From contig WBVU01000005.1 of assembly GCA_009192285.1 (NCBI GenBank), positions 1,434,768 to 1,498,767 of the forward strand: a stretch of DNA of 64,000 nt, given 5' to 3'. Under the pieces are notes generated by a model, which ran no database searches, had not been told where the DNA came from, and saw nothing but the letters and a program-made list of their open reading frames with translations. This stretch comes from Morchella semilibera. Its lineage: Eukaryota > Ascomycota > Pezizomycetes > Pezizales > Morchellaceae. The first letter of the stretch is position 1. Each line of letters begins with the position of its first letter. Positions 30,557 through 55,345 of the stretch are shown here, one piece after another. The position numbers and the translations under genes were made by a program.

Positions 30557-33500
30557 TCAAATTGCAAAGTCTTCCTCAGGCAAAGTCCTCCCGCTTAGCA
30601 TTTGTCCCATGTGTGTTGCAACATAGTTCTGCCCCTTGCGGCGCATCCCTATTAATGTCCGAAGAAACGGCACGGGGCTTTGGTCGAAGGTTGAATCTCT
30701 CATGAGTAGTAACTTGCGACTTGACGGCTCAACAAAGCCATCACTCCCTATAACCACCTCTTTTACCTGGGGATGAACCTTTAAATAGAGCCCTAAGAAC
30801 CCGCATACTCTCTCGTATGTCTCATAGTCCAAAAAGTAAACCTGACCAGCAAAGATGTTGATCGAATCAACCAATTCCAGGTTTGGTTGCCATGATTTAG
30901 GCAGTCGGGGGATCGTACAAAAGTCTAGAGTTTCGTATGACGGATTGGCCTTTGCCGTGCGCGCAGAGTACATGTGTAGGATTACCGATTTCGACTCGCG
31001 TATGCGGGGTAGTAGGTCGTTGACCTCGTAAGGACTCAAGATGATCAAGGTTGAAGCATCATTTTTCATCGACAAAATCCAGTTGACAGGTCGGAGATAC
31101 TCGTCCGACTTCCTGCCCCGCTTGCCCACAACAGTGGCAAAATCGTGTGTTACAAGGATTGTGTCCGGCCAAGATGATAGGTCCATATCCGGATTAGCTG
31201 AGGTATCGCGGAGAGTTTGGAAGGCAGGTATGAAGGTGTCCCAGCGCCGAGGATGTGGCGGTAGGTTCCCGGTATCTACCAATTCCTTCAGACCCCTTGT
31301 GACCTGATTAGGGATGGGGTCGGCCTTCGGGGGGCGCTCTAGTACTCGCTCGCATTCAATCTCATGAGACAACTCTCGCTCTTGCTCTTCGAGCATTAGA
31401 GCCCCACCGAACGATTTCACACCGAACTCTTTGCATTTGTCGAAGATTGCATGAAACTCACTACGCTCTGCTTTTCTGTCTCTCTCTGCGTCTCCTTTGT
31501 CGTCTGTCTTTCGTGTTGAAGGCCCTGTCACCTGGATCCCACTCTTCGGCCGCTTGAGCCCGTAATGCTCCTCCAGTGTTTTTGATTCTTGCTCCAGTAA
31601 GCTCTGTGGAAATGCCAGTCTAAGGTCGTTGCATGCCTTATACCGTTTAATATGACTGATCCCTTGTTTTGCCCATATTGGCAATAGCCTGCGAGCATTT
31701 TCACAAGTTTCCATCATACACCAGTGTAAGACATCCCGGACCTGGATCTCATGAGAACTATCCATCTTAGATATCTCAAGGATCCTTCGATGCACCTCCG
31801 GGGGCCCGCAAAAAACGACTGAGTGCCCATTTCCAAGTTTTCGCATTCTCATACATGCTGGGACACGTTAGCTAGGCAGACCAGAGATCACTACCAGGGT
31901 AGGAATAACCTTGTACAAGCCTATCCTTTGTCATGTTTGGACCCAGTGTTACTACAGCCCGACTCTCGCTCGGGAGCTTGAGGTCTGTACCGCGAGTATG
32001 CGCTTCATCAAGATATACAAGACACGCGTCAAGTCGTTCTGCGAAAGCCGAGATCATGAGTGGCTCTTTGGTCCCATCACGAGCTACTACGGTCAGTTCG
32101 TCAATGTCGCTAAAATATACTGCTGCTTTAGCGTAGCTCTCCGGCACCAGTTCCAGCCACTCTCTTGCAAACTCTTCGTTTCCTAGCTCCAATACCTGAG
32201 CGCCAACATCTAGTAATACAGTAACTCCTAAATCCCTCTCGGAGTCTGTGATAAACTCCAGTAATTGTCTAACGGTCAGACGCTCACCGCTAGGCCCATC
32301 TGCCAACCTGTAACAGTTCTCGGGCTGTAATAGATAGCTAAGAACCCTCGCGTTGGTATTGAGCTGCTCTTTCGTGTCCACTTGAGTAATCGATAAAGGA
32401 AGAAGGTATTGGTTATCATTTGTGCCGCTGAAGCCTGTCGTTGGCTGGGAGTCTTTCCTCTCGGCTATATCCCAGCCCGAGGTTGAAAGCTTCTCAGAGA
32501 ATTCCTTAGCTTCCATCGGGAAGACGACCCCAGAAAGATAAAAGTCAATGACTGCTTTGTTAAATCTAAAGGTAGGGAAAATCTCCTTCGACCATTGGTT
32601 CCGATCCTCCAGGTTGATGGCGCTCAGGTGTCTCAACTTGAAGTTATGATTAGTCGCAGAAACCTTCCCCAACCAACGCTCAAACTCCATTGTTGGATTA
32701 TCAGACTTATACACATCGCGAAAGCAAATCTCCAGCTGACCCTCACTCAGTCCACCATAGTAGTAGCTGAGACAGGTGAGGCTTATAGCAACGTCTGGAT
32801 GACTGAATTCGGACTGCCCAGAGGGGGAATCCTTTGCCCTATAAGGCACAGCTAGCATCGAACGCGACGGGTCGAGGCCATAATCAACTTTCCATCTCTT
32901 GTAATGCAGCACGTAGAGCAAGAGCTTATGGGCAATGAGGCCTCTCAGTAAATAGAGGATACCGGTTGCCGCCTGATTATCGTGATACTGTGAAAGCAGA
33001 CCCTCGCACTCATCCTCACGTAAAGTAGGCTTTGTGATAAACCTTTTCGCTACTTTTAGTAAATCCTCGGGCAGGAACCGGAAAGAAAATGAGGGGAGAT
33101 GGCCTATATAATATCATAGGACGTGTGGTCAGCCATCTCAAACTTTGTACCGCAAACCTCCGATGCGAGGGAATCATGAATAAGAGGTTTGGGAGTTACC
33201 TGCGATGATCTTGGACGCAATCGCTTTTAATAGGTTTTGCCCCGCAGGAATATCCAGGAAACGGATCGAGTCAAAGCCGCCGTCATGTGGAGAATGTACT
33301 ACCTCGAAGTGCTTGGAGTCGAACTCTGCCTCGCTGAGATGTTTTCTAATAAGATCGAGAATTTGTTGAATGATTATCCAGCGGTCAGGATAGCCTTCGA
33401 GAGATCTTGAACTTCCAATAGTATATATCAGTTCATGTCGAATGCTTAAGATCTCGTCGCTTTCATCCAGAATATCTCTTGAATTTTTCCTGAGCCACCG

Positions 33501-36500
33501 CTGAGTTTCCAGTAGCTGTTGGGCAACTGCTTGCAAATCGTCCATGTCTCTTGTGGGCTTGTTAACATCCTTGGGTGGGTGTTCAGCGTTGTATAATCTT
33601 TCGAGCCCGAGAAGCTTAAAGGATAATATATGCTCTGGTTGGGCTAACAGAATGCCCCCATTCTGCATACACTCCTCAAAAAGGCTATGAACAAGACGTG
33701 CTTCATCTAATCCCATCTTGACTCCACGGGAGAAGGGCAGAAGATAGATTCGTCGGTTGACCAAGCCTCCCAGCCTCTGGACCAGCGTTTGAAACATTTG
33801 CCCGATAAGTGGCTTCAACACAACGACCCGAACCAACCTGTTACGGTTGGCAAGGTAGGCGGCAGCAATAGGGACGATAATTGAAGTCTTGCCCTCTCCC
33901 ATACAAAGTTGTACGAGCGTATTCTGACCTTTATCTGGTGAGATCATCCTGGACGCTATGTCAACCTGAACAGGCCGCACAAGCAGGCTATTCTCGATTT
34001 CCATTAACAGCCAGTCCGTTTTCTCCATTTGTTTCCAATAACTATGGCCGCTATTTTCCAGCTCCTTAGAGAGTTCCGAAAAGGCTCCTGCTCGATCATA
34101 CTTGAGGAGACGTTGTGATCGCTGAAGCATAGCTATTGCTTTACCATATGTGACGAGTGCAGTTCTCCACCTGTCAGTTAGCTTGACTGCTCTGTTTGTT
34201 GCTAGCTGTTGGAGGATGAGCATCGGCGAGATCCGTGGCCACAGGCCGGCTCTGTATATCATCCAACCTTTCCCATTTCGTTTTGGGAGAAGTCTTTCCC
34301 GAATAGCACCAAATATACCCATCAAATACTTCTCGCACTCCGCCTCGCAGGACTCCAACATGTCTGTGGATACTAGCGCTCTGCCGGTTTCGGTAGAAGC
34401 AGGAAAATCCTTAAGAGCCTTGAAGCTCTCCCTTAAGCCCTTAACGTATATCTCCCGGAAACCTCCCTGGTTCTCCGAAGTCTCAAATCGCTCAAGAAGT
34501 GACTCCAGACCACTGTGATCCATGGCTGCCTCTGGTCCGCGATTGTTGGGGACAGAGCCTAGACCGACGTATGTAAGACGAGGGGGTACGGGTAGGTTTG
34601 GATGGGGCTTGCGGAGAAGGTTTTCTAGTGGAACTGTGCCGCTCACAGATGAAGGGGCCTCTCTGCATGGTTTAAAGGTATAAATCTGAAAGGTTCTTTT
34701 CTCCTGTAGATTCACATCTTTTAGCGCATCTTGAACCCTGCGCACATAGCGTTGGAGGTCCTGGTTCCTATGCCAGTTTCTGAAGTGGACAGTAGCATTT
34801 GCGAGAGCCGTAGAAGTATTCAAGAGCGAAAATTCACGTGTTGGTTTGTATGGGGTTTCAGACGGCCATTGAGCGAACATTTCGGTTACAAAGCTTGCCG
34901 CTTGCCCCTCTAGGTTCTTAGAGTATGCTTGGTATCGCCGAAGGAAGTGTTCACGTTCACTCTCACCCACTCTGATCCGCTGGTTGGCCTCATCACTGTG
35001 TTCAAAGGGTATGGAACATCCCTTGAGGGTGCCGTCTAAAGTGAGAAGATCGGGACCGCAGCCTTGCTTAAGGTTATAGGATGCAAACGCAGGCAGACCC
35101 AACCATCGAAAGTTATTCACTGTAGCAAATGCCAACAAACTCTCGATGAGGTCCATCTTCGTCTTTCCTGAATATGCGATCGCGCTGAGCAGGAATATCA
35201 GTCTGTATGTATGGCGTTCCTTGGTGCTCTCGGTCAGAGACTGGTAGAGTTCAAACCAAACCTCATCAAGACCTTGGTCCAGCCATTTCTGGTCATAGAC
35301 AAAATCAATCTTTTTGCCCCCGACCTCTCCCCACTTCTCAAATACATCCATCAGATTTAAGCAAACGCTCAGCCTCGATGGCCAGCGTTCAACTAAGGCA
35401 GAAGTGTAACAAACTCGTGCTTCATCCGTGGAGGACTTTTGGAGAATATCACGCGCCTCATAAACCTCATCCATGTTCGCCTCCCCGCTGGAGCCGCCGA
35501 ACTCGTGTGTGCGAAAGCTGGCGTTACGGTGCGCAGCCCTGTTGAGGAGCGCCGAATGGCTAGGTTCTGGCGCTTGGGGACTAGATCTAGCTTCCTCTCT
35601 CTCGAACATTCTAAAGCGGCGTGCATGATTCAAGACATCCCCCACAATACTGAAGAACTCCTCATGCTGCGCTATTGGGGACAGACTGTTCCACGCTACC
35701 TTCTGCATATTCCTCATGCGTTCTGGGTAGTAGGTGCGTGCTGGGGTCAGTGACTGAATGAGTCTAAAGAGTTCCGCTTCTTCCCCCTCGATCTCGGGCT
35801 TCTGAAAAGACCATGTTGCTGCGGCTCGAAGTAGATAAAGGGCCTCCTCGGTACCTGTCCGGCTGGTTAGGGTATCTGGCAGGCACGATGCCGTCACCGC
35901 ATGAAGATAAATTTTGTATAGGTGACTGGCCAGGCTGCCGTTCCCAACTAACCGACCGAGTATGGTATCAACGGTATAGATGTGATATTTAACCCGTTCT
36001 TGCCCTCTAGTATCGATTCCAACCCTGACATGGTGATTCTCACATTGCTCGAACTTCACCTTACCGTAAGGGATCAAGACGCTCCTCACTGGCCCCTGGC
36101 TCACAACAAGACGATTTTCCAGCCCTGTCAGCGTTCCAATATTTAGGTCACAATCAACAACCATGCCCTGAAACTGTCGGCATTCTAACTTTCCGTCTGA
36201 GTTGATGAAAAAGTCTAGTTTGAGGCGGGGTAGGTGCGCTGATATAACACCATCTTTCCCGTAGCATACAGCAATATGGCCTTTTTGTTCAAGAGGTCCA
36301 AGCACCAAGTTGATCGCTGCTGTTGTCGCACTGCGTACGTCGATTAGGCGTTGGTCTGCCCCAAGGTGGAGCACACTCCGGGTAGAACCGTAGGTATCAG
36401 AGATATACCGGTGGCTCTCTGGTTTCCATGGTGTCCCTCGGTCTCTCAATTCGATCTTATTTGTTGAAAGCTCTAGCCAGTAGAGGTGATTCGAAATAGT

Positions 36501-39500
36501 GTGACTCGGGAAGTCCCCATGCAATTTACCACGTGGAATAAGCTGGTGTACTACTGAGTCCGTTCTCCTCCGGATCCGAATAATAAGTTCCTTTCCATGC
36601 ATTACAAACCCAACCTATACCGATCTTGTCAGGGGGCTGTCAAAAAGAAAGTTTCAAGGGTCGTGAAGGCATTATTACATCATGTCCCTCCATAGGCTGC
36701 TTTGCCTCAAATACCATTCCATTCATCTTTGCTGGGAGCACGTCAAGCACCGTCTACAAAGCGATATTGATCAGCTCTTACCCAGGAATCAATCGATAGA
36801 TGGGGCACCGACCTCGCCAAATAACTCCATATACGTTGAATGAGAAACATAGTCCAATGGCAATTTACCAAGCGGTAATCCATCAACAAGTAGTTTACCG
36901 GTAAGCAGGTTGTAATACACCTTCTGAGGGCGATCCTCAGATCCTCCAGTCGTAGTAAACATCCATCTGGTGTTAGGGGCGGCTAAGCACCTCCAAGAGG
37001 ACTTGGATTTGTATGCACTCCACACGCAGGTAAGATCTAAGCCGACTCGATCTGTTTGAATCAGAGACCGAACGCGGGCTTCGATTGCATGGGACAATCT
37101 TCTGTCTCGATCGAGTAGGCTAGAAACTTGACGGGTCGAGGTTTCTTTAATAGCAGGGGCACTATCATGGATGATTATGGCGCATTCGACAAGAACAGCA
37201 ATATCCTGGCGGGAATTAAGTACATCGTGCAAATGTTCCTCCCCGACGTTGTAGGTTTCTCGGCACACTGCTGCTACCTGCACAATACGAACCGTAAGTT
37301 CACCCATCTCCTGGGGCTTGCATTCCCGCAGCTTCGTAGATATTTCTCGTGTCCAGCCCAAGCATACCCTCCGTGCGTCACGCAAGAATTTAACAGCATC
37401 TGCCTTGATGGACTTATTGGTGGCAAAGGAGAGGAGCTGAATCGCTAGCATGACAAGGGTCTGGGTTGCGACAACCTCTTGCCAGTTGGACTTTATAATT
37501 CCGAGAAAATTGACCAGTTCGGAAAGAAGGCTTCGTCCAAACTCTTCGTCCTTGAGGTCAACATGAGATTCCCTCAACACCTTTGAACATCCCGCGGGTC
37601 CCCTGGGACCAACTTGCCAAGCACACTGTGAAAACAACATATTGACCGCATCATTATTGAACCTGAGGGTACGGCTTCTGAGCTCTCGTAACATATTAAG
37701 CCACTGAACCCTGTGACCAGACCGCACAAGTCCAAACGCGATGTACTCGTGAAGCTGCATATCTACCGGGCATTCGGACTGCCTGGATATAACCGTGTTC
37801 GGAGTATGGGCAGTCGACTTAAGAGTGTAGTGTAATTTTTTGTAAGGGCCTTCAGGGAGTCTGGGTGTACACAACTTCTGAACATGGGACTCGCCGATGG
37901 CATGGTCGGCCCATTTCTGCCCCTCGCTGTCGTAGAGGCCATAGCGCAACCCATGATTTACTTGAATGGACGCCATCGTCGTGGGGAGCCTGGCAAACCG
38001 GTAGTGACATTTGAGAAATGGCTTGGCGTACGACGACCACTGAAGTTTCTGCGGCCTGCACCGTTGGGGGGCCTTCAGATACCTTTTTAGGCCGGAGTAG
38101 GTGTCAAGTGTCTCATGGACCTCATCGGTTTTGCCCAGGGGGATTCTTGGCGGGCGGAGTTCGGTCAAAACTTTGAATGTCATGTCTCTCCATATGGAAA
38201 ATCCTAGTGGGCATTGGAGCTCGAACACCACAGCTTTCTGCGCCAGAATCTCTTCGGGGAGTGGATGTTCAAATCGCTCTATCCGTATCGCCTCTGCGGA
38301 GCCAATTAAAAGACATCTTTTGCAAAACTCGCGATATTCCTTCTGTCCCTCCTCCCAGCGGGTACGGGAAACACATCCGCAAGACAATCTATCGGCTGCG
38401 CTGAGTAGGTCATAGTAGTTTGCCTCTTTATCCTTAAGCTCACTCTCCTTTCTAACGAGGTCCTTCTTCACATTGTCTAATATTTGGCGCCGCAGACGCT
38501 GGAGGTCATTCGAACTATCAAAGTACTGTACCGCAAACGATCTATCTGTCACTTCATCTGAGAAGAGCGAATCTGCTGACCCTCTATATGTCCCATTCTT
38601 GCGAGCTTTCAGATATTCCTCGATGTTATAGAGGCGAATTCTTTGCTGGGCTTGCGGCAGCAGGAGGTGAGTTAGGAGGTCATCCCCGAAGCCCGGATTG
38701 TAGCGGGATAGCAGCGGATGAAGCATCAGAGCAATCTTGTCGAGCGTGACCCAGAGCTCCATCATTGTCAAAAGGAATACTGAGTTTTTTTCTGGACCGG
38801 AGGAGGCTGATGGCTTTCCAACTGAGATGTAATCTTCTAGTTCCTCTCCTAACCTCTCGCAGGCTTGCCTGCGGTCCTGAATAGAAGCGAGCCATTTGCC
38901 CAAATTATTGCCCACCCAAAGCTCAAAGTCCGCCAACATAAATTCTTTATCAGGGGTTCCCTTAAAGCTGGCAAGCTCCGGCAACCGGGGTGAAGCAGAA
39001 TTGATCCGTTTGAATTCACTTGGCGCAAAATTGCTGATATTCCCTTGTTTAACCCCCATAGTCCTGGCTAATTTCAGGTATTCTTTGGTTTTATTCATTG
39101 AGAGTTTCACGTCTCTCTCGGGGAAGAAAGATTTCGGATCCCAATGGAATGGTCTGGAGTAATATTCCTGTGCTTCTGTCCATCTTTTCTCCAACGTATC
39201 ATGCGCCAGCTCGCACACTCTACGTGCTTCGACCAACGCAAATTGTGGTAAAGCCTCGTTGCGCATCTTGTGGACTCGCCGGCTCAGCTTTGCATTCATG
39301 ACAAAGAGGACATCACTGGAAATATCCTCCATGGATAATGCCCAATCCAACAGCCTGGCCATGAGAAAGACCATGAACGCTTTATACTCTTGATGCCCCT
39401 CGCCAGGACCCCTCAGCGTTGTTTGCAGCGCAACCCTCACAACAAGCCACAGTGGGGATCGCCGCCAGGGAGCCCGTGCATCGTCAAAGAGGACATCGTC

Positions 39501-40241
39501 GGCTATACGTTTCTCGATGCGCTGAATAGCGGCTGGTGTCCCAATCCCTCTCAGGATCCCCGTAAGCATTTCGGTGATGAATTGCGGACTCTGCGTTTCC
39601 CTATCCTCCACGACGGTGGATCCCGCTTTAACCACCTTGTGCGATGCTTGCTCCAAGACATCCCGACTCATCTTCTCTAGGAAAATGCCAAGTTCCTCGA
39701 GGAAAGCGGCGTTCTTGACCTTTGCTAGACTCACATAGATCGCAGGGCCAGGATAGGAACAACGGAGTTTGCCTATAGTCCCTATCACGCTCTCAGTGAG
39801 CGGGGATGCCTCAAAGGACTCAAACAACATCGTATTTTTCAATTGTCGTAGGATGAGGCCGGCATTCTGGGCGCGAATATGTAGTGCCAATACATCTGTT
39901 TCCATAAATCAACATTCACCCAACCCAGCGCAGCGAGGGGCAACGATAAACATACCACCCTTTTCCATAGATTTGACAGCCGTTCTGAGAGCATTCGCGT
40001 CGAGGGCGTTATTGTTCTCGAGCTGGCCAAGGGTTTCAAGCATCTTGACAGCTGGAGCCCACTGCGCATGTCTCTCATCACCCCTTTTTTCGTGGTAGGA
40101 CACAGCGATCTCCCGCACAACTTTCAATAACGCAACATTGCCCTCTCCCATATCGTTCTCGGCCTCTTGCGGCAGCTTTGGTGGGAGGAAAACATGGTTG
40201 ATGATGAAGAACAGGGAGCCCATGCCAATATCTAACGGCAT
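30557..40241 (-). CDS. Giant DUF6606-DUF3638-DUF3645 ATPase-like protein
   Basis: Six exons with matching phases: 40241-39956, 39895-36813, 36753-36679, 36614-33200, 33103-31910, 31857-30557, giving about 3,117 aa, the usual size of this family (~3,000 aa). The N-terminus FFIINHVFLPPKLPQE marks DUF6606. Around residue 2,050, QLCMGEGKTSIIVPI is a Walker A motif within DUF3638 (VRPVQVDIASRMI precedes it; ILLAQPEHILSFKL and ILDESDEILSIRHE follow). LAVPYRAKDSPSGQSEFSHP marks DUF3645, then YLDEAHTRGTDLKLP and LVQACMRMRKLGNG. The role is unknown; databases often label relatives 'ubiquitinyl hydrolase', for which I see no motif evidence. The pattern fits a divergent SF2/SecA-like motor (inference). 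The exon-2 donor GTCGGT and exon-3 donor GTAATA are weak, but splicing there restores family-typical sequence (ELFGE-TVLDVLPAKMNGMVFEAKQPMEGHDV). No inactivating change seen. Confidence 0.9.
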
Positions 40242-43274: not shown

Positions 43275-45982
43275 CGTCAGCTAATGTTCTTACAATATAG
43301 CCGCCCGTCCTTGAGCTCATTTCCAAGGGTTTGCCGCTCACCTAGTAGCGACTTTTTAATGTAAATCATACTGCCTCTTCTTACCCTCCATCACGTTGGG
43401 CGGGTGCAAGAGTGCCTTTTCCGGTAATTATTCTAATGCCTAACCCAGAACTCTTCGGGGAATAGAAACACCTTTGATGCCCCGCTACGCGTCAAGCTCA
43501 TCCCTTAGACGGACGAAAGTTGTGAAATTCGCGGCCTGGACCGTCCACGCCTTACCAAAGGAATGGTATCGCTTGTTCCAGTGGATGGGGGCAGGGGAGT
43601 CAATCAGATGTTTCGGACGGTTGCCGCACTAGACTGGTGATAGCTGAAAGAGGGAGGTCGCGAATTTGAAAGGTTTTTGAACAAGTATTTAAGACTTCGT
43701 ATCGAATTATCAAACTTGTCAACATGGGTGCGGGTGCGAGCGGGGATGCCCTGCCTTTTATAGGCGGGGGAACAAAGCAAGAATACAGCCCACCCGGGGG
43801 GACAGGGGCTTCTGGGAACTAGTACTTTGTGCGAGCATCTTCACCAAGGTGCTATCCCTCCAAAGGATGCACGAAAGGTATAACCGCGGAACGCCACCAG
43901 AGTACGCGTTTGCAGGCAAATTGTGGCTAGGTGTCCGATGACTTATTACCCACCGCTGTACAAAACCTATGAAATACAGCGCCGGAAACGGGCAGAAGAC
44001 CACTACCGTATTCTGGTCATTACGGTAGTGACTCTGTAGGAATAAGTACCATATGCATACGGTATCGATACGGTATTCTACTTATGGTGCCGGTTTAAAC
44101 CGGTACCCTTGACTCAAAAGCGTAGCCCCACGGTTACATTTTTACCCCCCATTTCCGAGACTGTATACCAGTACCAGAGGTTATGATGTGTGAGTTTTCA
44201 AATCCTAACTTATTGCTATTCTCATTTTCTGGGGTTGCACATTTATTTACAACTTCAGGTTGTGGGGGGGGGGGGGGGGGGTGCGTCCACCAAGCCAAAC
44301 ATGGAACCTAAATCCATGTCCGGATTAATCTTCTTATTCTAGATCCTGCGTTTAATAAATACTCAATCATCTACTTGTTCATATCTCACATATATCCTAT
44401 TCCACAGTTTGCAGAGAGAAAGTTGCAAGTTCTATCTACCCAACGGATGGATTGGATGATCACGAGCTTCAGGAAGGTGCGCAAGCTAAATAAACTGTTA
44501 CGGTCCGACCCTTGCCGGCTAGTGCAGCCGAGCGTCCCCAGCCCTCCATAGTGCTACAGTATGTATATATTGTAAACCATTCTAGAGGTCTGACACAGTC
44601 TATTGTGGAAAAACCATCCGAAGCCGCAGCGGCGGCCACTATCATACCCTAGCCTAGCTTAACACTTCCGATTCTTTCGGCACTGCCGACGTTACACGCC
44701 TCTTTTTCGGACAGAGGGTCACGGACTACGGGCTCGAATGCGGAAGCGAGCGTTGCGGTAGAGGCAGCATGGTCTAGTCATCACTCGGTAGGGCTAGAAG
44801 CAGAGATGAGCGCTTCCGCAAAGCCACACGCGGAGCAGTGGGCCCCCGAACGGCATAGGTGGGGGAACTGTTCTGGAGCATCTGAAGGAGCGATCTTGCT
44901 CCTGATGTGGGGGGCCCACACCTTAGACAAAGGTCACAAAGACAGGTCTGGTACTGACTGTGCCTGCTAGATTAAGTGGGGTTCGCTCCCGGAGAACATC
45001 TCAGGCGCGAAATGTTAGAGCATTGGGGGAGGCGCGGGGTGGCGCTGGAGACTGTAGGTCAACCCTCGGAGATACAGTGTATATAAACACCAACACACAT
45101 ATGTCACTGAAGAATCGAACTTAAAATGTTGACATAGCCAAAGCTTGCTCTGGTAAGTCACAGCTTCGGATAGACCCCGAAACTGCGCTCACAGAGCCGC
45201 AGTTATTCCACCCTTGCTTAGTATTATGCAGGAACCGCCTTGGCGCTGCATGCCGGGGTCATTACCCCACCAACGCAGAGCCTCAAAGTGCGGGGTAGGG
45301 GAATGCTTGTCCACAACTACTAACCGTGTGAACAGGGAAAGGAGCTGCCTCCGCTTCATATTATATTTCTGGAATATTTACGGATGGCATCTGCTAAAAG
45401 CTCGATACATCATGGGGCGTTGCATATGGAGAATTAATATACTGGATTGGTTATTCCCGCGCCCAATGGTGCATCTTAGCGCGGGGATCGAGGTCATGCC
45501 AATGACTCATAATCTGTAGTATCATGCCGTTCATCCTGTGAACACTCCTTCTTGTCGCTAGGGTTTTTCATACAGAGCAGTACTGTGGGACTCAGGCGTA
45601 GACGATAGTACAGACGCATTGAATGCTGTGGTATCTCATCTTCGCTCTGGCACGCCACGACTATAATAGATGTTACGTCATGGTTCCCACCATTCCCAAG
45701 CACCACTACCACGGAAGCTGCCTTCCCGGTGCCTGCCGCCTTGGCAGGATCTGCAAGGGGTTTCTCGGTACCTTCAGATCATGCTTATGCAGGGACCGAC
45801 CACTTCTCTTGGGCAGGGAGACATAGGATTTTTCTCCTCCATCGTGGTTGTTTAGTTTGGCTGGGTAATATTTCGTCAATACTTTTGTGGAAGGAGTCTG
45901 TTGGGGCAGTAGTAAGTATGCCCTTTGTGACGATTCACACATAGACTGACCTGTGTCCATCCTCAAATAACTAAATCGTAGG
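43275..45982. other. Gene-poor region left of the large transposon
   Basis: No supportable gene on either strand. It contains the palindrome cluster at 44001-44108, a run of 14 or more G at 44267-44281, and otherwise unremarkable intergenic sequence. Confidence 0.4.
44001..44108. repeat. Cluster of palindromes beginning with CACTACCGTA hairpin
   Basis: CACTACCGTA, ten bases, then TACGGTAGTG form a perfect 10-bp inverted repeat at 44001-44030. Next come AATAAGTA and TACTTAT arms around a doubled ACGGTAT (44041-44085), and the palindrome CCGGTTTAAACCGG at 44090-44103, extended to 22 bases with one mismatch. The first hairpin's CACTA ends suggest remnant termini of a CACTA-type element. Confidence 0.5.
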
Positions 45983-46007
45983 CACTATGGTACATACATT
46001 TGGTGGA

Positions 46008-46532
46008 GACTGTTTAACTTAAACAGTTTTACTGCTTAAACCGCCTAAAAACTGTTTAAATCCTAATTTTAAACAGTAAAACTGTTTAAAATCCGGCATT
46101 CTGCCCAGAAACTGGTTAAGTACCGGGTTTAAACAGTTCAACTGTTTAAACCCATGTCGCTTGCAAACCTGGTTAAACAGCCAGACTGTTTAATACGTGC
46201 ATAAACAGTTTAACTGTTTATGGCTTTCCGCCGCATAGATACGTCCTTTGGTTAAACAGTCAAACTGTTTAAATTATTAAAACAGTCGAACTGTCTAATA
46301 TCGCTTAAACAGTAAAACTGTTTAATTCCTCTCATTGGCTATATATATATATATAAAGCTTCTCATTTAAACAGTCACCGCTAAGCAAACAGTAAAACTG
46401 TTTAACTTAAACAGTAAAGCTGCTTAAATCATATCTAGTCGGTCATTTAAACAGTAAAACTGCTTAATTGCATGTGTCTAGTCGGTTCATTTAAACAGTA
46501 AACTGCTTAACTCAAACAGTTACGGTGTTTAA
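46008..46532. repeat. Left subterminal AAACAGT/ACTGTTT array
   Basis: Roughly 25-30 half-sites AAACAGT or ACTGTTT (variants ACTGCTT) are mostly arranged as inverted pairs separated by 3-4 bases, such as TTAAACAGTAAAACTGTTTA. A (TA)7 stretch lies at 46339. They are presumed binding sites for an element-encoded protein. Confidence 0.9.
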
Positions 46533-46625
46533 TCCACGATTCAGGTTGGCTATATATATAGTACACACACACAATATAGCACGATTCTATTAACACCAAT
46601 TGGTTCAATTGCAGTTGATCATGAC

Positions 46626-49600
46626 CTATTCGAAGAGCGCCGTATATCTTCTAACTATATACTCTCTACCTTTGTTGTTTAGTATCCCTATTAGCTCGCG
46701 GATATCAGCTGCTGGAATTATTCTTATTATCCCTTTCCCTCCGCGGTATCGCAGCCTGCCATCCTTATGTACCGGGAAATGCCTTATACATGCGAGAAGA
46801 AGTTCGCAATCCTTTTTCTTCCTGATAGCCCCTCTTTCTTTTAACTGAATCTGCTCGTCAACTGGCTCCGCACCCGTGGCTGTTGTATTCCATAGAGCGA
46901 GTCTTCTCGTTACTTGCAGATGGCGCCGGATGAAGGCATTCTCCTCTGGATTTGGAATATCCACAGTAAAAAAGAATAGGACCTCGCCGTATTCAGTTAA
47001 AGTTTCTCTTTCCCCATCCCGGAGGTTTCCATTTCGATCCGGTAGAGCTCGTGCCAGTTTAAAGCTTACGAATGATGTTGACCGAGTGAGGTTTGACCTC
47101 TGTTTTGTTGAAGAAGTCGCTTTAAATGGGTATGGGTCACCACGTTGTACTGTAGTCTTGAAATCTACAGCTCGGAATACACGACAATGTAATGGAATCT
47201 CATAACCATCTGCTGTGGCATCTAACTGAGAATCCTCAGCATCATCGATTGCAAGATCCACATCAAAATCTTCGTTTCCCAGGAAGTTACGAAGACATAT
47301 CCTTTCATATGGCGTCAAGGCCTTTACCTTTGATGGACCACAGAAAGTTATCGTATCTCTATCGCGCATATCCGATACCACTTTGGCTTCCGGCGGCCTG
47401 GAATTTTTTATCCGTTTCGACAAGAACTTCGCCAGCAGGATATTACCATCTGAGTCTTCATCGCTACTCTCCACCGTTATTCCTTCTTGGTCTATAACGT
47501 ATACGAGACAGTTCTTTTGTTCCAACATGGTGATCGTGTTGGAGATATTTTTATTCGTCGAAACCCTAGACTTTGCCGTTTTAGCCAGTGTCCCGCAGAA
47601 ACGCTCCATCGCCCATTGCGAGTATGAATACATGGGGCCTGCCCATCGAAGGGCTTGGGGGACATGGATTATTTGGTGAAAAACAGGTAGGCAGGCCTTG
47701 AGCCGTGTCCATTTCATACGATAGTATCGTCTTTCGTAATAGTCGCTGAACCTCTGGATGCTGACCTCCAATTGGGTCAGGTCGTCGTCGAGAATGGAGT
47801 GATCGCATGTTAGTTGAATAGCCTCTATCAGGTTGACGAATTCAACGTAATCCTCTTCTGGAAGGACCCCCTTCATGTATACCGGACCTATGATGAACGC
47901 AAACAGCTTCCACTCCGCCGCAGTCATCATATTGATGTATTCTAAAAAGTTTCTGAGTAGCGGGCCAAACAGCTGTGGAAACGTAGATGAACTCGATGCA
48001 ATATCGGTGCTTATCCGCTCCCATATCTTCAATGGTATGTTGTATGGGTCCTCATTTGCGATAACCTTTGAATCCCGGCCTCTCGATCTTGCCTGTGCTG
48101 GATTTGGTCTAGACGGTGCCCTCGCTCGTCTTGTTATACCAGGGCCACGACCTGCTGGTGTCACTCTATTTCGCCGAGCTCGAACCTGTATATAAATACA
48201 CATCATGATTTAGTAAATGATTGATTTTTAGATATAACTCATGTAAGATTGTTGTATATTACCGTTTGTCTCCCACTCCTTGCAGTGGCTGGAGAACCCC
48301 CTTCTTTTACGCCGTCGAGTTCGTTTTCACTCAGCTCGCTGTCAGCATCAGATCCGCCTGGGCTTTCCTCCTCGCGACCACGATCGATCATGTCAATATC
48401 TTCCTCTTCCTCAACATTCGAATCTTGCCCCGATTCCTCTTCTGAATCCTCTTCCGCACCTGCAGATTCCTCCTCCGGTTCGTCACTGAGCTCCCCCCTG
48501 TCTCTCTGCGCTTGATTTCCCGCACCTCGCCGCCGGGGTCCAGCTGGCTCACTTTCACCGACATCACATACAAATCTTCCTCTCCAGTGCTTGACGAGAT
48601 CCGGAATGATGTTCTCGAACCACAAATGCATGCTATCTGGTGGGAAGCTTCGTGGAAAATCAACTGCAGTCAAGCGGCTTAGAATAGACAGACCTTTGAT
48701 ACCATATTTAGCCTTTTGCTGCACCGTTGCACCTCTTCTCGCGATTTGTTGAGCAACCAGACGAAATTCCTCGTCTATTCGCATTGGGAGGCTTGTACGG
48801 TCCCACGTTTTCCAGGGGTAACCCGAGCCCTTGCGTATTCTAGCCTTCTGTGGGGTGTCTGTCGGCGGAGTCATTGGGCAATACAGGGACCCGTTCCATA
48901 CACCCCTGACCATACAATACTCGCAATAGCAATATGAGCGATTCCCCGTTACTTTCATGAGTTTTTCACGTGCAATCATGTCTGCGGCAACCAGGCATAG
49001 ATATCCATGAAGAGTGAAGTGTTTTTCAGGCATCCATGATGGTATCGACGCATTCAAAACACCCCGTATCCCCCGCTCGAGTGCTTCAAGCTCTTTGACC
49101 AGAGGGTACAAGAAAGAGTCAATATCCCTTGGTGTTTTGGGACCTGGTATGAACCCTGTGCAAAGCATGTTTTGTCGTTTCGTTCGAACGGTGGGTGGAA
49201 GATTGAGGCACAAAAGAGCAATCGGCCAAATAGAGAATTTCGCCCTTGACTGAAATATCTGAACCCCATCGGTAGTTAATACGAATCCCAGGTCCGTTTT
49301 CTGCTGGAATAGGCGTTTAGCCTTCATGTCTCGGTAAAGATCACCAGTCCAAAAGTCGGAGGTAACACCTTCTTGTGATTCGGCTTGGTCCCGATAAGCT
49401 ATCAACCAACTTGCACGTACTGGATCTGCATACCAAAGCCTGAGACGGTGCTCTATGGGTATATAGTCGTATGTAGCGTAAGGCTCTTTCCTGGCACCTA
49501 TACCAACCTTCCATCTGGGGTGTTGACAGTAATCGCATTGCCGCTTATCTGGATACAGCGCATAAGACATGCATGACGACTTACAGCAATCAATGCTTAT

Positions 49601-51289
49601 CGATTCCACGCCGGTCTTGTTTTGAATCCATTTCTTCGTAGTTCGGTAATCCCAGCACGACCGGTGGTCGACATTCTCGACTGAATCAGTGAAGGATATA
49701 TTGTTGATCAATGACGTCATATCGCTTGCCGATGCCCTGGACAGCTTATGTGTAAGTTTTATGTCATGTATTGCCACCGATAGCAGCTCAGTTTTTGACA
49801 TTGCCGTTTTTCTCACACCATATGGAAAACCGCCCTCTTCGTCGTCTGTAGTACTGGATTCCACAGATCTAGAATCTGCGCCAGGGTTTGCTCTATCCAA
49901 CCGTCCCTCACTAGTACTGCTAGCAACACTATCGCGGCCTGGCATATCCTCATCTGAACTGGATAAAAGATCGGAATATATGTCATACTCAAACTGTGGC
50001 TCCGCAACAAATCCCCTCCTCATTAGGCCTGCAGCTGCACCAACAACATCTTCATCATTATTCTCCTCATCGCTATTAACCCCACTTTCGACCAATACCT
50101 CTTCGTATCCGTCCGAAGTCGATTGGTCGTCACTACCGTCATGATTGATGATGTGGGCGTTTTCTGAAGCCATATCTATATCAGAACTACCCTGTATATG
50201 TCGCATAGCCCCACTATCTTGCGATTCGTAAGGTAGACTATCCATCTCAATATCTGACTCTTCCGCCATGCCAGGGCTGATTTGGTCGTTTTCGTTGTTT
50301 GCTGCAGGTGAATCAGCTGCTTCGGATCCTGGATGCTGCACGTATGGCAATATTGGAGGGGGGCTCGAGGCTATAATATTCTCATCATCGGAACTATCGG
50401 CTGCATCCGCCGGGATATGCTCATGCCTGTTCTCGAAATGTTCCTTTTGATACCGGCGCGGGGTCACTCGGGGCTTTCGAGCTGGCAGTTCCGGCGGTTC
50501 TTCGTCCACATCTAGATCATCCTCGGGCTGGTCTGCAGCTGGTTCATCAGAAGACATCATGTCTCCCCAAGCAACACTTTCAGACTGATGATGGCTTGTT
50601 TGGTCATTCAGCTCCGTGTTAACATGATCTATTAATCTAGGTACAGCGCGACGTCGTCTTCTTGCAGGAAATTCCGGGGCATCAAATTCATGATCAACTC
50701 CGACCAGGCCCCCACCCACGCCACCCATGTAGCCCGGTCCAATATGTCTTGGAGATCGCAAAGATGAATCGTGGGGTGAAATGGCTCTGGGTTCTGACAT
50801 CGCCGGTCGGGCATATATGGCTGGCCTTCGGGTTCGAACTGTTCGGGGTGTTCTAGCGGGTATAATGGCCTGTAGCTCATCATCCTCGTCCGACTTATCC
50901 CCCTGCACCCCAAGCTGATCATCGTTATCTCCAGAGCTTGCACCATCGTCATCCAGCTGTTGGTCGCGAATGTGTCTTCGGTTTGGGGCCCTTTGGGACG
51001 GTTTGGATCGAGGTCTCCTGGCAGGCAAATCTGGACGTTGTAGCTCTGTAGTCTCTCTTGTCGCATCTCTTGCCCGTGAACCCATATCAACATTCCCCTC
51101 GAGCTCCTGATCATCGACTCCGCTTGAGTTTTCGATTTCGTCATCGTCCCCACGCGGCGAAAATAACTGATCCAACCTGTCTTGCTCTTGCGCCTGCAAG
51201 TGCATGTGCCATTCTGATAACTTCGTGACCGGATGTGGACGGATGTCGAGCAGCGAGCAGCTACAAACGCGGTAGAAACCAGCAGGCAT
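46626..51289 (-). CDS. Tnp2-type (CACTA) transposase
   Basis: Two exons, 51289-48263 and 48185-46626, joined in phase 0 over a 77-bp GTAATA...ACAG intron, give about 1,528 aa. The first ~520 residues are acidic and low-complexity (Asp/Ser/Glu). A Cys pattern CCKSSC...CDYC follows near residue 568. Then comes the fungal Tnp2/Transposase_21-like core: TDGVQIFQSR near 678, LLCLNLPPTVR, GFIPGPKTPRDIDSFLYPLV, FTLHGYLCLVAADMIA, CYCEYC, and DFPRSFPPDSMHLWFENIIP near 885. A second acidic stretch ends exon 1. Exon 2 holds EWKLFAFIIGPVYMKGVLP and AGPMYSYSQWAMERFCGTL, resembling the DUF4218-like part of plant CACTA transposases. It is open throughout. The catalytic acidic residues were not assigned. It would cut and join the element ends in the nucleus. 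Confidence 0.88.
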
Positions 51290-51818
51290 TTCTCTTTTGA
51301 TGAGTTAGGTAGAGTTGAGAAGAAAAAAAAACTGGGGGTCTTGCGCCAAGAAAAAAATTTCGTTTCTTGGGGGGGGGTGTTGAAGCAAAATCGTGGTGGT
51401 GTCTATATCTTATGTGTGGAAGTGTAAATATGTGGAAGTGCAAATAGACGAGCGAAGTGCAAAAGACGAGTGACCTTGTATGTGTTAGGCAGCTTAGAGC
51501 TGTGTGCAACTCCTACCATCACATGACTTTGATACATCTTATCTGATGGATAGCACCAAAACGGCTAAACTAAGCTTTATCGGATAAGATCAAGACAAGA
51601 TATGCCTATCGTGGCACGCTAACTGATTAATTGGGTATAGTCTAAGAAAATTTTCTCCTTTCGCTTGGCTATCAACAATCTCAGCTCATCCAACACCCCC
51701 CCATTAACACCCCCCCCCCCAACACTACGGCCACTTTCATCCATCATTCTCACTATCATCCCCCCCCCTCTCTTTCAAACAGATACACTCAGTCGGTCCC
51801 GTACGCGCAATCCCACCG
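51290..51818. promoter_or_regulatory. Divergent intergenic spacer of the transposon
   Basis: About 530 bp between the two start codons. It contains an A-run and G-run just upstream of the transposase, and pyrimidine-rich leader sequence (CACCCCCCC..., CATCCCCCCCCTCTCTTT) directly before the plus-strand ATG at 51819. It probably serves as a bidirectional promoter. No AAACAGT array is present here. Confidence 0.5.
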
Positions 51819-54607
51819 ATGTCTCCCAGTGTACAAGAGATCTTGCAGGCGAAGAAGGAGGAACTGATGAGGCAGATGCGCGATCTGGAGGAGAAAATGG
51901 CTGCAGAGGAAGCTATGCTCACACAGAGCCTGGAAAGAGAACAGGAAGTACCCGAGCACGCGGTCGAGGGCAAAGGTTCTGATGAAAGCAGTACAGAACA
52001 GGCTGGTAAGCTGATCCATCACCATTCTTCTCCATCTAATTATCGGACCGGTAGGCGGCGGTACGGGTATAGTCATGAAAGTTACTAATGTTCCTATATG
52101 CATCTTAGCCAAGGGAAAGTCCAAAGCTCCTGTTTTGCACCAACGAACGATGACAGGCAGGGGAATACTTTCACCAGTCGGAGTATATACCACCCCCGGC
52201 TCCGAGATTAGCGAAGCAGACTCAGATCAGATAAGCCCCAGCGTTCGAGCTCAAATCATTGCGGAAAAAAGGAAGAGCCAGAAAATGCCGGTCCGGTTTA
52301 GTGAGCCTGAAGGTGGACAATCTCAAGGTCTGAGCTCCAACAAATCCGTGGCAGCCATCAGCTCGAAACATTCGACGATTGCAAGGCAAGGCGGGGCACC
52401 GTTACAACCGGCTAAGTCATCCTCCGCGTCGTCGTCAAAAACTCTACCCCGAAAGTCAGCCTCAATCGTACACGACCATGACACCGACGAAACGAGAGAA
52501 GAATCGCCAGACCCCAGCGAAAACATCCCAGATGAAGAGGGAGTTGACGTCGATGATGTGGATATGGGTATGGACACTGGTGAAGAACTGCGACCAAACT
52601 CCAAGGCTTTTCGGCGATCCCTCAACATTCGGATGGGCGTGATGATTGAAGGAACAGATAATATTGATAGGAAAAAATTGAGGCTACGGCGGCAATGGGT
52701 GTTGGAGGAGTGTCTGGCCAAGGGCATACGTTTGGACACTTCTTTCAATTCTTATCCCTATGAGACGAAGATGTGGCCTATGATCAAGTATATTGCAATA
52801 ACCGCCCCCAGGGAATGGGGCTGGGACCGCATGTTGGCCAAGGATGTGATTCGAACGATGTGCTGGGATCGGGGACGCAACAAAAGGAATCGAGCACTCA
52901 GAGCAGCTGGCGTTCCCCCGGATCCCACAAAAGCTCGCAGAAAACGGCTCCCTCCCACGACAGCCGATGATAGTGGTGGCTCGGGCAAACACGATAGTAG
53001 CCAAAGAGTCGAGACGGCTATGGAGGCCAATGGAGAAGCGGATGAAGGCCATATGTCCACACGAAGATCGACTGCCCCAACCAGCACAACAATAACACCA
53101 CCGCCACAGCGATCACGTACAACGAATGCCCAAAACAAAGACAACCGCGGAGTTCAACAACCGGTGGTGCTGACAGCGCCAGCGGGTGGTCGAAACCAGG
53201 CAAGTAAAGTTAGCAAAGTCCCAACTGCTGCCACTAAATCCAAACCCCCTACAAACAAACGGCCGCAGGTCAGTGGTGGCACTGAAGGTCCAAAAACTAG
53301 CGCTCCCGTGGCCGTACCGATCAGCAAACTTGTTCGTGGTCGTATGCAAGTTCAAAGCCCCCCTTCCCCGCAATTTGAGTCCAGCCCCCTCGTCCCCCCT
53401 GCCCGCACCCCCGTTCATTTGCATAAATTCAGGCAGCCCAAATTAACAGCACTGGAAACTATCGGGCATGCGGCAAAAGATAAAGCTGATACAGACGAGG
53501 AGAAGGATGTCTTCCAGGTGTTCATGGGCAAAAGGGTTTTCCGTTTTGCCACCGACATAGAATGGGACGAGTTTGAACTTGAAATTCAAAGTCGTGTTGC
53601 TTTAGAGGCTGATGAGTCTATGTTTTACCGGGCGCGTGGTGGGCGTGATAAAGAGTGGAAGCCTCTTGCCTATCCTGTCGAGTTGGAAAAGATGATAGAA
53701 CAATACGCTCACTGCGGGGCAGAAATTTGTATCAAGGAAGCGGTAAGTCTATATGCCCTGATTATATACTCCTAGGTTAATCATGTCAGCTGTTTGCTAA
53801 CTTTTGGTGTTGCTGACTATACAGCGAGCGTTTATAGAAGAGGAGGAGGAGGAGGAAGAGGGTGCTCCTGTTAGGAATAGAAAGAATTCACTGGTTTGGC
53901 GATGACCCCCGGCCTATAGATATAATTTATGGTAAGAATTTTTTCTTATACGGAGAACTAACGATATCGGTGCTATGCCATAGCCTGCTGGAGAGCCTGG
54001 AGAACCTGACCTTGTGATTGGAGGGCAGGACATTAATAATCATTCCGAGATAACACAAACTCTCGTCCCAAACACCCCGAATGATTACGAAAAGGGCAAG
54101 TTGCTAAGTAGTACGGGATTGATAAGCCCACCTGATTCGAACAAGGACTCGGCTTCACCGGAAGGCTTAGCTATAGGGATGATCAGCGAAAGTACTAAAC
54201 CATGCAAAAGAAAATTCCCGCATCCTGAACATGCCCATCTGCCATCACCGGAGCCATCTCAAGTACCGGATTCACAAATCCCCACTACACAGGCAGTTGT
54301 TTCGCCTATCGTGAAGAGAAAACGGGGCCGCCCGAGAAAAAATGAGAGTATTCAGGAGTCACAACTGCCTGCCTCGCAGACTGCAGATCAATTGGAAGAG
54401 GATATCAACAAACGCAAATCAACCAGGAAGATTACCAAAAGTATGAAAGTTTTGGATAACGGAGAGACCCAGAAAATTACCGGTGATGCTAACAAATTGA
54501 AATGTGCGAAGAATAAATGGAAAGAAGAGTGGGTTGGGTTTGAAACACGCAATCCACCAGCGTATTTAATTGCACGTGGAACGGCGGAGGGTGAGCCCGG
54601 GAGATAA
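51819..54607 (+). CDS. Transposon accessory protein with coiled coil and AT-hook
   Basis: Exon 1 is 51819-52005 and exon 2 is 52109-53742. They are joined over a 103-bp intron with a TACTAAT branch point and matching phase. Exon 3 starts at 53825 after a GTAAGT...ACAG intron. A last exon 53984-54607 follows an acceptor with a CTAAC branch point; the exon-3 donor is uncertain (53870 or 53894 keep the frame, both weak). The N-terminus (EILQAKKEELMRQMRDLEEK) is a coiled coil. The middle part has a conserved-looking helical block (RRQWVLEECLAKGIRLDTSF ... RTMCWDRGRNKRNRALRAAG). The region from 53480 (VFQVFMGKRVFRFATDIEWD) is a second block. The last exon carries KRKRGRPRKN, a good AT-hook. I know no named homologue. 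By position and AT-hook it may bind the A/T-rich subterminal arrays, as TNPA does in En/Spm (inference). Confidence 0.7.
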
Positions 54608-54863
54608 TAGGTAACTGTCCTCTTCATATATATAACTTGCATGGGTGTGGTCGGTCTGATGTGTAATTTTCAGATATGCTCAACAATACCACGTTACATT
54701 ACCAACCGATACACTGTTCCAGCTGCAACACGTTACGATTGATCTATATACAAGAGCTGCGAGAGGGTGATAGGTATATTAGATACATGTAGGGAAGATT
54801 AACTGTATCGTATACCATAGTCACCGGTTGCAATTGAATAGCTACTGCGCAATATGCTACTAA

Positions 54864-55325
54864 AATACTGTTTAAAATACTGTTTAAATTAAACAGCTAT
54901 AGATAACGTAAAACTGTTTAAACTAAACTGCTTAAATTAAACTGCTTAAATTAAACAGTCGTAAACTGTTTAAACCATGAGTCATAGGTCGTTAAAAAAA
55001 CTGTTTAAATAAAACAGTTAATGAAAACAGTTTTACTGTTTTACTTAAACAACTTATCTAAAACAGTTTTACTGTTTTACTTAAACAACCTATCTTAAAC
55101 AGTTTACTGTTTTACTTAAACAACTTATCTTAAAACAGTTTTACTGTTTTAATTAAACAACTTATCTAAACAGTTCGGGTGTTTAATTTAAACAGTTTCA
55201 CACACCGCCCATAGCAACGAAATTTAAACAGTTTCCAAACAGTTTTCACGCAGTTTTCAAACAGTTTTCTAAACAGTTTACTGTTTAAACCACTAAACAG
55301 TTTAACTGTTTAGACTTAAACAGTC
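54864..55325. repeat. Right subterminal AAACAGT/ACTGTTT array
   Basis: The same half-sites as at the left end, in high density. Between ~55022 and 55170 four tandem ~36-bp units of the form AAAACAGTTTTACTGTTTTA plus CTTAAACAACTTATCT occur, showing local amplification. Confidence 0.9.
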
Positions 55326-55345
55326 AAATATGTACCTCGGTGAGG

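Follow-up and report, generated by a model that had tools for sequence, protein, structure and literature searches.

A complete fungal CACTA transposon with a divergent accessory gene and palindromic subterminal arrays in Morchella semilibera

INTRODUCTION

Does a fungal CACTA element encode, beside its transposase, a protein of its own for its subterminal repeats, in the manner of the maize En/Spm system? This question is raised by a 9,360-bp element, here called E0, that occupies positions 45983 to 55342 of a 64,000-nucleotide stretch of Morchella semilibera DNA (assembly GCA_009192285.1, contig WBVU01000005.1, positions 1,434,768 to 1,498,767 of the forward strand; hereafter the window, to which coordinates refer unless a contig is named). 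Only a few plant elements have shown how a CACTA accessory protein recognises fast-changing subterminal repeats, and similarity among the plant proteins is low (PMC2613891; here and below, published sources are cited for the parts covered). An earlier note on this DNA had proposed a whole CACTA-like transposon with two divergent genes and palindromic arrays. We followed it up computationally, in the window and in the genome (56.8 Mb in 23 contigs). The genome is fungal in content: the Fungal_trans family matched 70 times in it and gave no signal in any of 14 control genomes. Judged by its ends, copies, and insertion sites, E0 is a complete, mobile, and recently active fungal CACTA transposon, and its accessory gene, judged by its distribution, belongs to the transposon lineage, in which it occurs in two gene arrangements.

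RESULTS

E0 begins with CAC at 45983 and ends with GTG at 55340-55342. Its terminal inverted repeats (TIRs) are short and imperfect, with CACTATGGTACATA at the left end (45983-45996, plus strand) identical at 11 of 14 positions to CACCGAGGTACATA, read inward from the right end (55329-55342, minus strand). The element is bordered on both sides by AGG (45980-45982 and 55343-55345, plus strand), a clean 3-bp target-site duplication, and the earlier note had placed the whole transposon, its inverted ends, and the duplication exactly. Another candidate TIR, at 43951 (one mismatch in 12 positions), was rejected after the 500 bases inspected there revealed no array.

The completeness of E0 was judged from four genome copies with identical ends and from paralogous empty sites. 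The left kilobase, used as a genome query, returned eight matches, four of them full length and four of 29 bases inside those same copies; the right end returned the same four full-length matches and four short reverse matches inside them. The copies lie on contig C21 (the window copy), on C22, and twice on C4 (C4a and C4b), and each is 9,360 or 9,361 bp long. C21 and C22 match locus for locus, offset by about 1.5 to 1.7 kb, look like two haplotypes, and were counted once; their E0 copies occupy one common site (AGG), and the two C4 copies are both flanked on either side by ACT, in flanks that differ. Near-identical copies sharing these exact ends, on which the earlier note had made its reading depend, are therefore present at three distinct sites, and the duplication is 3 bp at all three (AGG, ACT, and ACT).

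Compared with the C21 copy, C4b has 5 substitutions and 1 indel, C4a has 5 substitutions and 6 indels, and C22 has 3 substitutions and 13 indels of a single base each. Assembly errors may account for the indels. Some of them shift the frame: C4a is affected in the second exon of both genes, C4b in the second accessory exon, and C22 in the first transposase exon and the last accessory one. Both genes of the window copy are open under the gene models proposed below. The substitutions between C21 and C4b (window positions 47130, 48016, 48389, 52377, and 55090) are all C-T or G-A, in mixed contexts, possibly through methylation damage or mild repeat-induced point mutation; the T at 55090 is common to C4a, and the direction of change is therefore unsure. 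The right-end query also matched, in two pieces, one diverged place on C16 (L017-L018, C16:609763-610163; 74-81% identical). C16 has no Transposase_21 match, and this E0-like piece is perhaps a relic or a nonautonomous derivative.

The C4b copy landed within a dispersed repeat about 130 bp long, and for this reason has many paralogous empty-site matches. We joined its flanks with a single ACT and scored the best 40 of 63 candidates; among the matches listed, at least 38 other places match across the junction, some of which look like haplotype pairs. All 10 of the 38 that were fetched (L071-L080) are continuous through the predicted junction, with no added length. Eight have a single ACT, and two (L071 and L077) read ACTACT via one G-to-A change after ACT and are not longer. 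A genome search for empty sites of C4a matched only its own two flanks and no empty paralogue. The empty sites of C4b, which break where the proposed ends would have them break, are strong sequence evidence for insertion of E0 with a 3-bp duplication and exact ends.

The transposase gene lies on the minus strand. Its first exon (48263-51289), which contains the Transposase_21 domain, is separated by a 77-nt GT-AG intron (48186-48262) from a second exon that includes the stop codon (46626-48185), giving a protein of 1,528 amino acids as predicted from sequence alone. Transposase_21 is its top Pfam match (E 6e-14, above the cut-off), which confirms the Tnp2 type assigned by the earlier note. The published CACTA transposase motif I is present in E0 and in three related families of the same genome, E1, E2, and E3, and is followed by CxxC in E0 and E1; in E2 and E3 the motif is followed by a stop, probably because of an intron, and no CxxC was seen in that reading frame. 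E0 combines Transposase_21 with motif I and CxxC, CAC...GTG termini, a 3-bp duplication, and subterminal arrays at both ends, features that place it in CACTA/EnSpm. Its anatomy thus demonstrates both the insertion of E0 and its self-contained design.

At least seven families in this genome pair a transposase with an accessory protein, and array sequence was available for six of them, for E4 at one end only. Transposase identity to E0 is about 50% for E1 and E2 and about 30% for C1c. E1 spans about 15.2 kb, from C1:4268625 (L070) to C1:4283839 (L061), and is flanked by GGAT; E2 (L062-L063) is flanked by TATT, and E3 lies within runs of A. The CAC...GTG termini recur at both ends of E1, E2, and E3 and at the right end of E4, for which the stretch examined revealed no left end. 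C1c (L068-L069), flanked by TTAC, has the ends CCC...GGG, not CAC...GTG. From the sequence, E1, E2, and C1c seem to duplicate 4 bp, compared with 3 bp in E0; this was read by eye from one insertion per case, and in the 3-bp pairing test the ends of these two families, E1 and E2, failed to pair. The 4-bp duplications and the ends of C1c would suit a placement of E0 in another CMC-related superfamily, such as Plavaka, Chapaev, or similar, but such a placement is highly improbable given the top Pfam match to Transposase_21, the CAC...GTG ends, and the 3-bp duplications at all three E0 sites. Pfam includes a Plavaka transposase model, which the transposase frames did not match at E values up to 1.

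An intergenic region (51290-51818) that lacks AAACAGT and presumably houses both promoters separates the transposase gene from the divergent accessory gene. On the plus strand, the latter has at least three exons: a K/E-rich first exon with a coiled-coil-like start (51819-52005), a second (52109-53742), and a last one (53984-54607) whose splicing is predicted. Joining 53742 directly to 53984 stays in frame and gives 814 amino acids; an extra small exon at 53825-53869 is possible and would give 829, and a longer one at 53825-53931 was discarded because it runs into a stop. The last exon contains an AT-hook match with an RGRPRK core (54314-54346, plus strand; last-exon frame residues 111-121), which scores 18.2 bits (E 0.0021) where the cut-off is 17.4. 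The earlier note had described a divergent second gene with a coiled coil and an AT-hook. The divergence and the AT-hook held, and the coiled coil was judged from amino acid composition alone, with no coiled-coil predictor. By the same measure, charged Met-started upstream segments like that of E0 occur in E1, E3, E4, and C17c, and a pattern search of raw frames (not gene models) found AT-hook-like patterns in E1, E2, E3, C17c, and C1c.

Alignment of the accessory proteins of seven families (E0, E1, E2, E3, E4, C17c, and C1c) revealed two conserved blocks. Domain A (52585-52926, plus strand; 114 amino acids in E0) has 12 invariant columns over the seven sequences and is 27-47% identical to E0 in the other six families. 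An AlphaFold2 model predicts four helices (mean pLDDT 89.3), and a profile search against the PDB gave one match, at E 0.87. No Pfam family matches domain A in more than three of the seven members; matches to RING zinc fingers, from one member (best E 1.1e-4), and to DUF3136, from three (best E 0.0075), were set aside. Domain B (53485-53742, plus strand; 86 amino acids) is a predicted PB1-like beta-grasp (pLDDT 85.7). Its top Foldseek match, and the only one at E of 0.001 or below, is the PB1 domain of NBR1 (E 8e-4, TM 0.61, 12% identity), with GABARAP and other PB1 and ubiquitin-like folds close behind. PB1 is also the only Pfam family listed for domain B, below the cut-off and in two of the seven members (best E 0.068). 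PB1 domains carry an acidic OPCA motif, and no canonical acidic motif was seen in the domain B alignment by eye. A weak profile match to the designed protein ThreeFoil (E 0.0015) was rejected, as it covers about half of the domain and ThreeFoil has a different fold.

The plant accessory models TNP1 (pfam03017) and Ptta (pfam03004) (accessions from PMC2613891) matched none of the accessory frames at E values up to 1, nor domain A of the seven families at E values up to 5, a search in which the HMMER filters drop most weak matches. The earlier note had not recognised the accessory protein, and its kind went unrecognised here as well, with neither a plant Pfam match nor a PDB fold match for domain A.

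A protein search with E0 exon 2 found the accessory gene in all four E0 copies and elsewhere in the genome; a distant relative, used as the next query, added further places, and two more queries added none. Pfam yielded 25 Transposase_21 rows, or 22 distinct places after removal of three rows on C22. With pairing defined as an accessory homologue within 8 kb, 16 of the 22 were paired, at 2.8-4.5 kb between start coordinates, 7 on opposite strands (divergent) and 9 on the same strand. The remaining six comprise four with open frames of 483-588 amino acids and two that are degenerate or short. Conversely, 19 of 21 accessory places (C22 included, gene pieces merged) adjoin a transposase, and about 0.7% of the genome lies within 8 kb of Transposase_21. 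These two counts make the accessory gene part of the lineage. A host gene captured by chance in one copy, which the earlier note had named as the outcome that would undo its reading, is an extremely improbable source for it: the pairing count rules this out within this genome, and the two accessory places that lie elsewhere are short fragments. The conservation that the earlier note had expected of the protein was thus found. Pairwise identity of domain A also tracks that of the transposase (Spearman 0.70, p 0.003, over 15 nonindependent pairs from six families, E4 left out). Scans of virus and prokaryote contig collections with domain A confirmed no relative and are uninformative on its fungal distribution.

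The subterminal arrays contain 22 exact AAACAGT half-sites at the left (46009-46520) and 25 at the right (54867-55324). AAACAGT occurs 50 times in the window, compared with 8.65 expected and a maximum of 15 over 100 shuffles, which rules out arrays by chance. As the earlier note had noticed, the sites gather at both ends: 47 are inside E0, 22 within 700 bp of its left end and 25 within 700 bp of its right end, and none lies between the two end regions. Each of the six families whose ends were read (E0-E4 and C1c) has its own repeat words. For the spacing analysis we used the core A[AC]ACA, which the families share and which was picked by eye once their sequences had been read. Among inverted spacings, the most frequent is the convergent A[AC]ACA-N7-TGT[GT]T in E0 (13 pairs), E2 (14), E3 (14), and E4 (10, right end only), and the divergent TGT[GT]T-N5-A[AC]ACA in E1 (13) and C1c (14). 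In 300 shuffles per family, a control that covers the choice of spacing and not that of the core, no inverted spacing exceeded 3 or 4 pairs. No convergent N7 pair occurred in the tested interiors of E0-E4 (E3 minus 350 bases). Measured between half-site starts, the spacing in E0 is 10 bp with the 7-mer AAACAGT and 12 bp with the 5-mer core. Such family-specific palindromes fit the dedicated binding factor that the earlier note had suggested.

Elsewhere in the window, a large ankyrin-repeat frame lies at 11952-16603, next to a frame with an NPHP3_N (NACHT-like) domain, a combination common in fungal NLR-like genes. On the minus strand, adjacent long frames at 30557-39908, two of which have DUF3638 and DUF6606 domains, are possibly one very large gene.

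DISCUSSION

E0 makes a 3-bp duplication, as maize En/Spm does. The maize system (TNPD and TNPA) resembles E0 also in its Tnp2-type transposase, CAC ends, subterminal repeats, and second protein (for the roles of TNPA, see PMC1636069 and PMC2613891). However, alternative splicing of a single transcription unit yields the En/Spm proteins (PMC1636069), whereas the genes here are separate, divergent in E0 and on the same strand in other families, and the accessory protein of E0 has no plant Pfam match and its arrays are palindromic, with different motifs. The mirroring of En/Spm that the earlier note saw therefore extends to the second protein and the arrays, but not to the single spliced unit, and with no accessory protein of the TNP1 or Ptta type and its genes on opposite strands, E0 falls outside En/Spm in the narrow sense.

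Fungal members of the CACTA-related TRC elements of fungi and animals (DeMarco 2006, PMC1636069) have been known since 2006. They share with E0 a Transposase_21 with motif I, and the CCC ends of animal TRC elements resemble those of C1c. A tryptophan-glycine interchange in motif I marks three of four fungal TRC sequences, whereas E0-E3 have the ordinary form. The parts of that paper covered describe no fungal accessory protein and do not mention the word subterminal, and for its accessory candidate, SmTRC-PrA, no fungal relative was detected. The fungal EnSpm elements of Kojima 2025 (PMC12730594) have CAC...GTG ends and 3-bp duplications, as E0 does, but their cargo is a TET/JBP dioxygenase gene; in the main text of that paper, the terms subterminal, PB1, and second protein do not occur. 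Among the fungal CACTA papers found in the open-access full-text literature, as far as covered (Repbase, supplements, and subscription papers lie outside this search), none describes such an accessory protein.

We consider a TNPA-like role for the accessory protein reasonably probable: it would bind the arrays and assist the transposase. No similarity to the plant factors was detected. Three considerations lead to this view: the precedent set by plants (PMC2613891, PMC1636069), the joint occurrence of accessory gene and arrays in all six families whose ends were read, and features of the protein that suggest DNA binding and multimerisation. In such a mechanism, the Transposase_21 protein would cut at the CAC...GTG ends and insert the element via a 3-bp staggered cut. 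The accessory protein would recognise the subterminal palindromes, whose half-sites lie about one helical turn apart, through the helical domain A, assisted in the AT-rich arrays by the AT-hook; its multimers, held together by the coiled-coil-like segment at the N terminus and by the PB1-like domain, would cover the two ends and pair them for the transposase. Array sequence and protein version, both family specific, would limit cross-mobilisation.

VANDAL elements of Arabidopsis are Mutator-type elements. They too encode a protein of their own, VANC, whose target motifs, often tandem repeats, vary among related elements (PMC5735166), as the arrays do here, but they are plant elements and the role of VANC is antisilencing, with methylation lost throughout the element (PMC5735166). 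By analogy, the accessory protein might be mainly an antisilencing or transcription factor whose array binding keeps the element unmethylated and expressed, with no part in cutting; plant TNPA, too, reactivates a methylated promoter (PMC1636069). We consider this unlikely, since the arrays lie at both extreme ends with no AAACAGT between the genes, which end pairing fits better than promoter control. Less likely still, the transposase itself may bind the arrays and leave the accessory protein another task, such as chromatin tethering by the AT-hook, nuclear import, or target choice. AT-hook and PB1-like modules, both carried by the protein, are general chromatin and scaffold parts; in plant CACTA elements, on the other hand, it is the accessory protein that is credited with binding the arrays (PMC2613891).

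Several observations weigh against the TNPA-like role proposed here or the uniformity of the lineage. Foldseek searches of domain A against the PDB gave 10 matches, the best at E 3.7 and none credible; because no known DNA-binding fold was matched, DNA binding by this domain is argued from conservation and context. The pattern search of E4 raw frames found no AT-hook, motif I was not matched in the E4 transposase, and no convincing coiled-coil-like start was found by composition in E2 or C1c. The correlation with transposase identity is weaker for domain B than for domain A (0.50, p 0.055). The preferred spacing differs among families, with two convergent N7 pairs in E1 and none in C1c, and the choice of the core by eye lies outside the shuffle control. 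With four of 22 Transposase_21 places having long frames and no detected accessory homologue, some elements of this kind may do without the accessory gene.

More tentatively, and with the odds somewhat against it, the coiled coil, new helical domain A, PB1-like domain, and AT-hook may define an undescribed family of transposon proteins in a whole fungal CACTA branch. Such proteins would polymerise via the PB1-like domain along helically phased palindromes and so pair the ends; domain A and array sequence would change in step under a constant spacing grammar, and one genome would then hold several insulated, pairwise-matched protein-DNA codes.

As it stands, E0 offers a testable fungal counterpart of the maize two-protein system, and domain A is a candidate new helical DNA-binding domain. 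With at least seven paired families in one genome, and E0 present as near-identical copies, the co-change of protein and array becomes directly testable.

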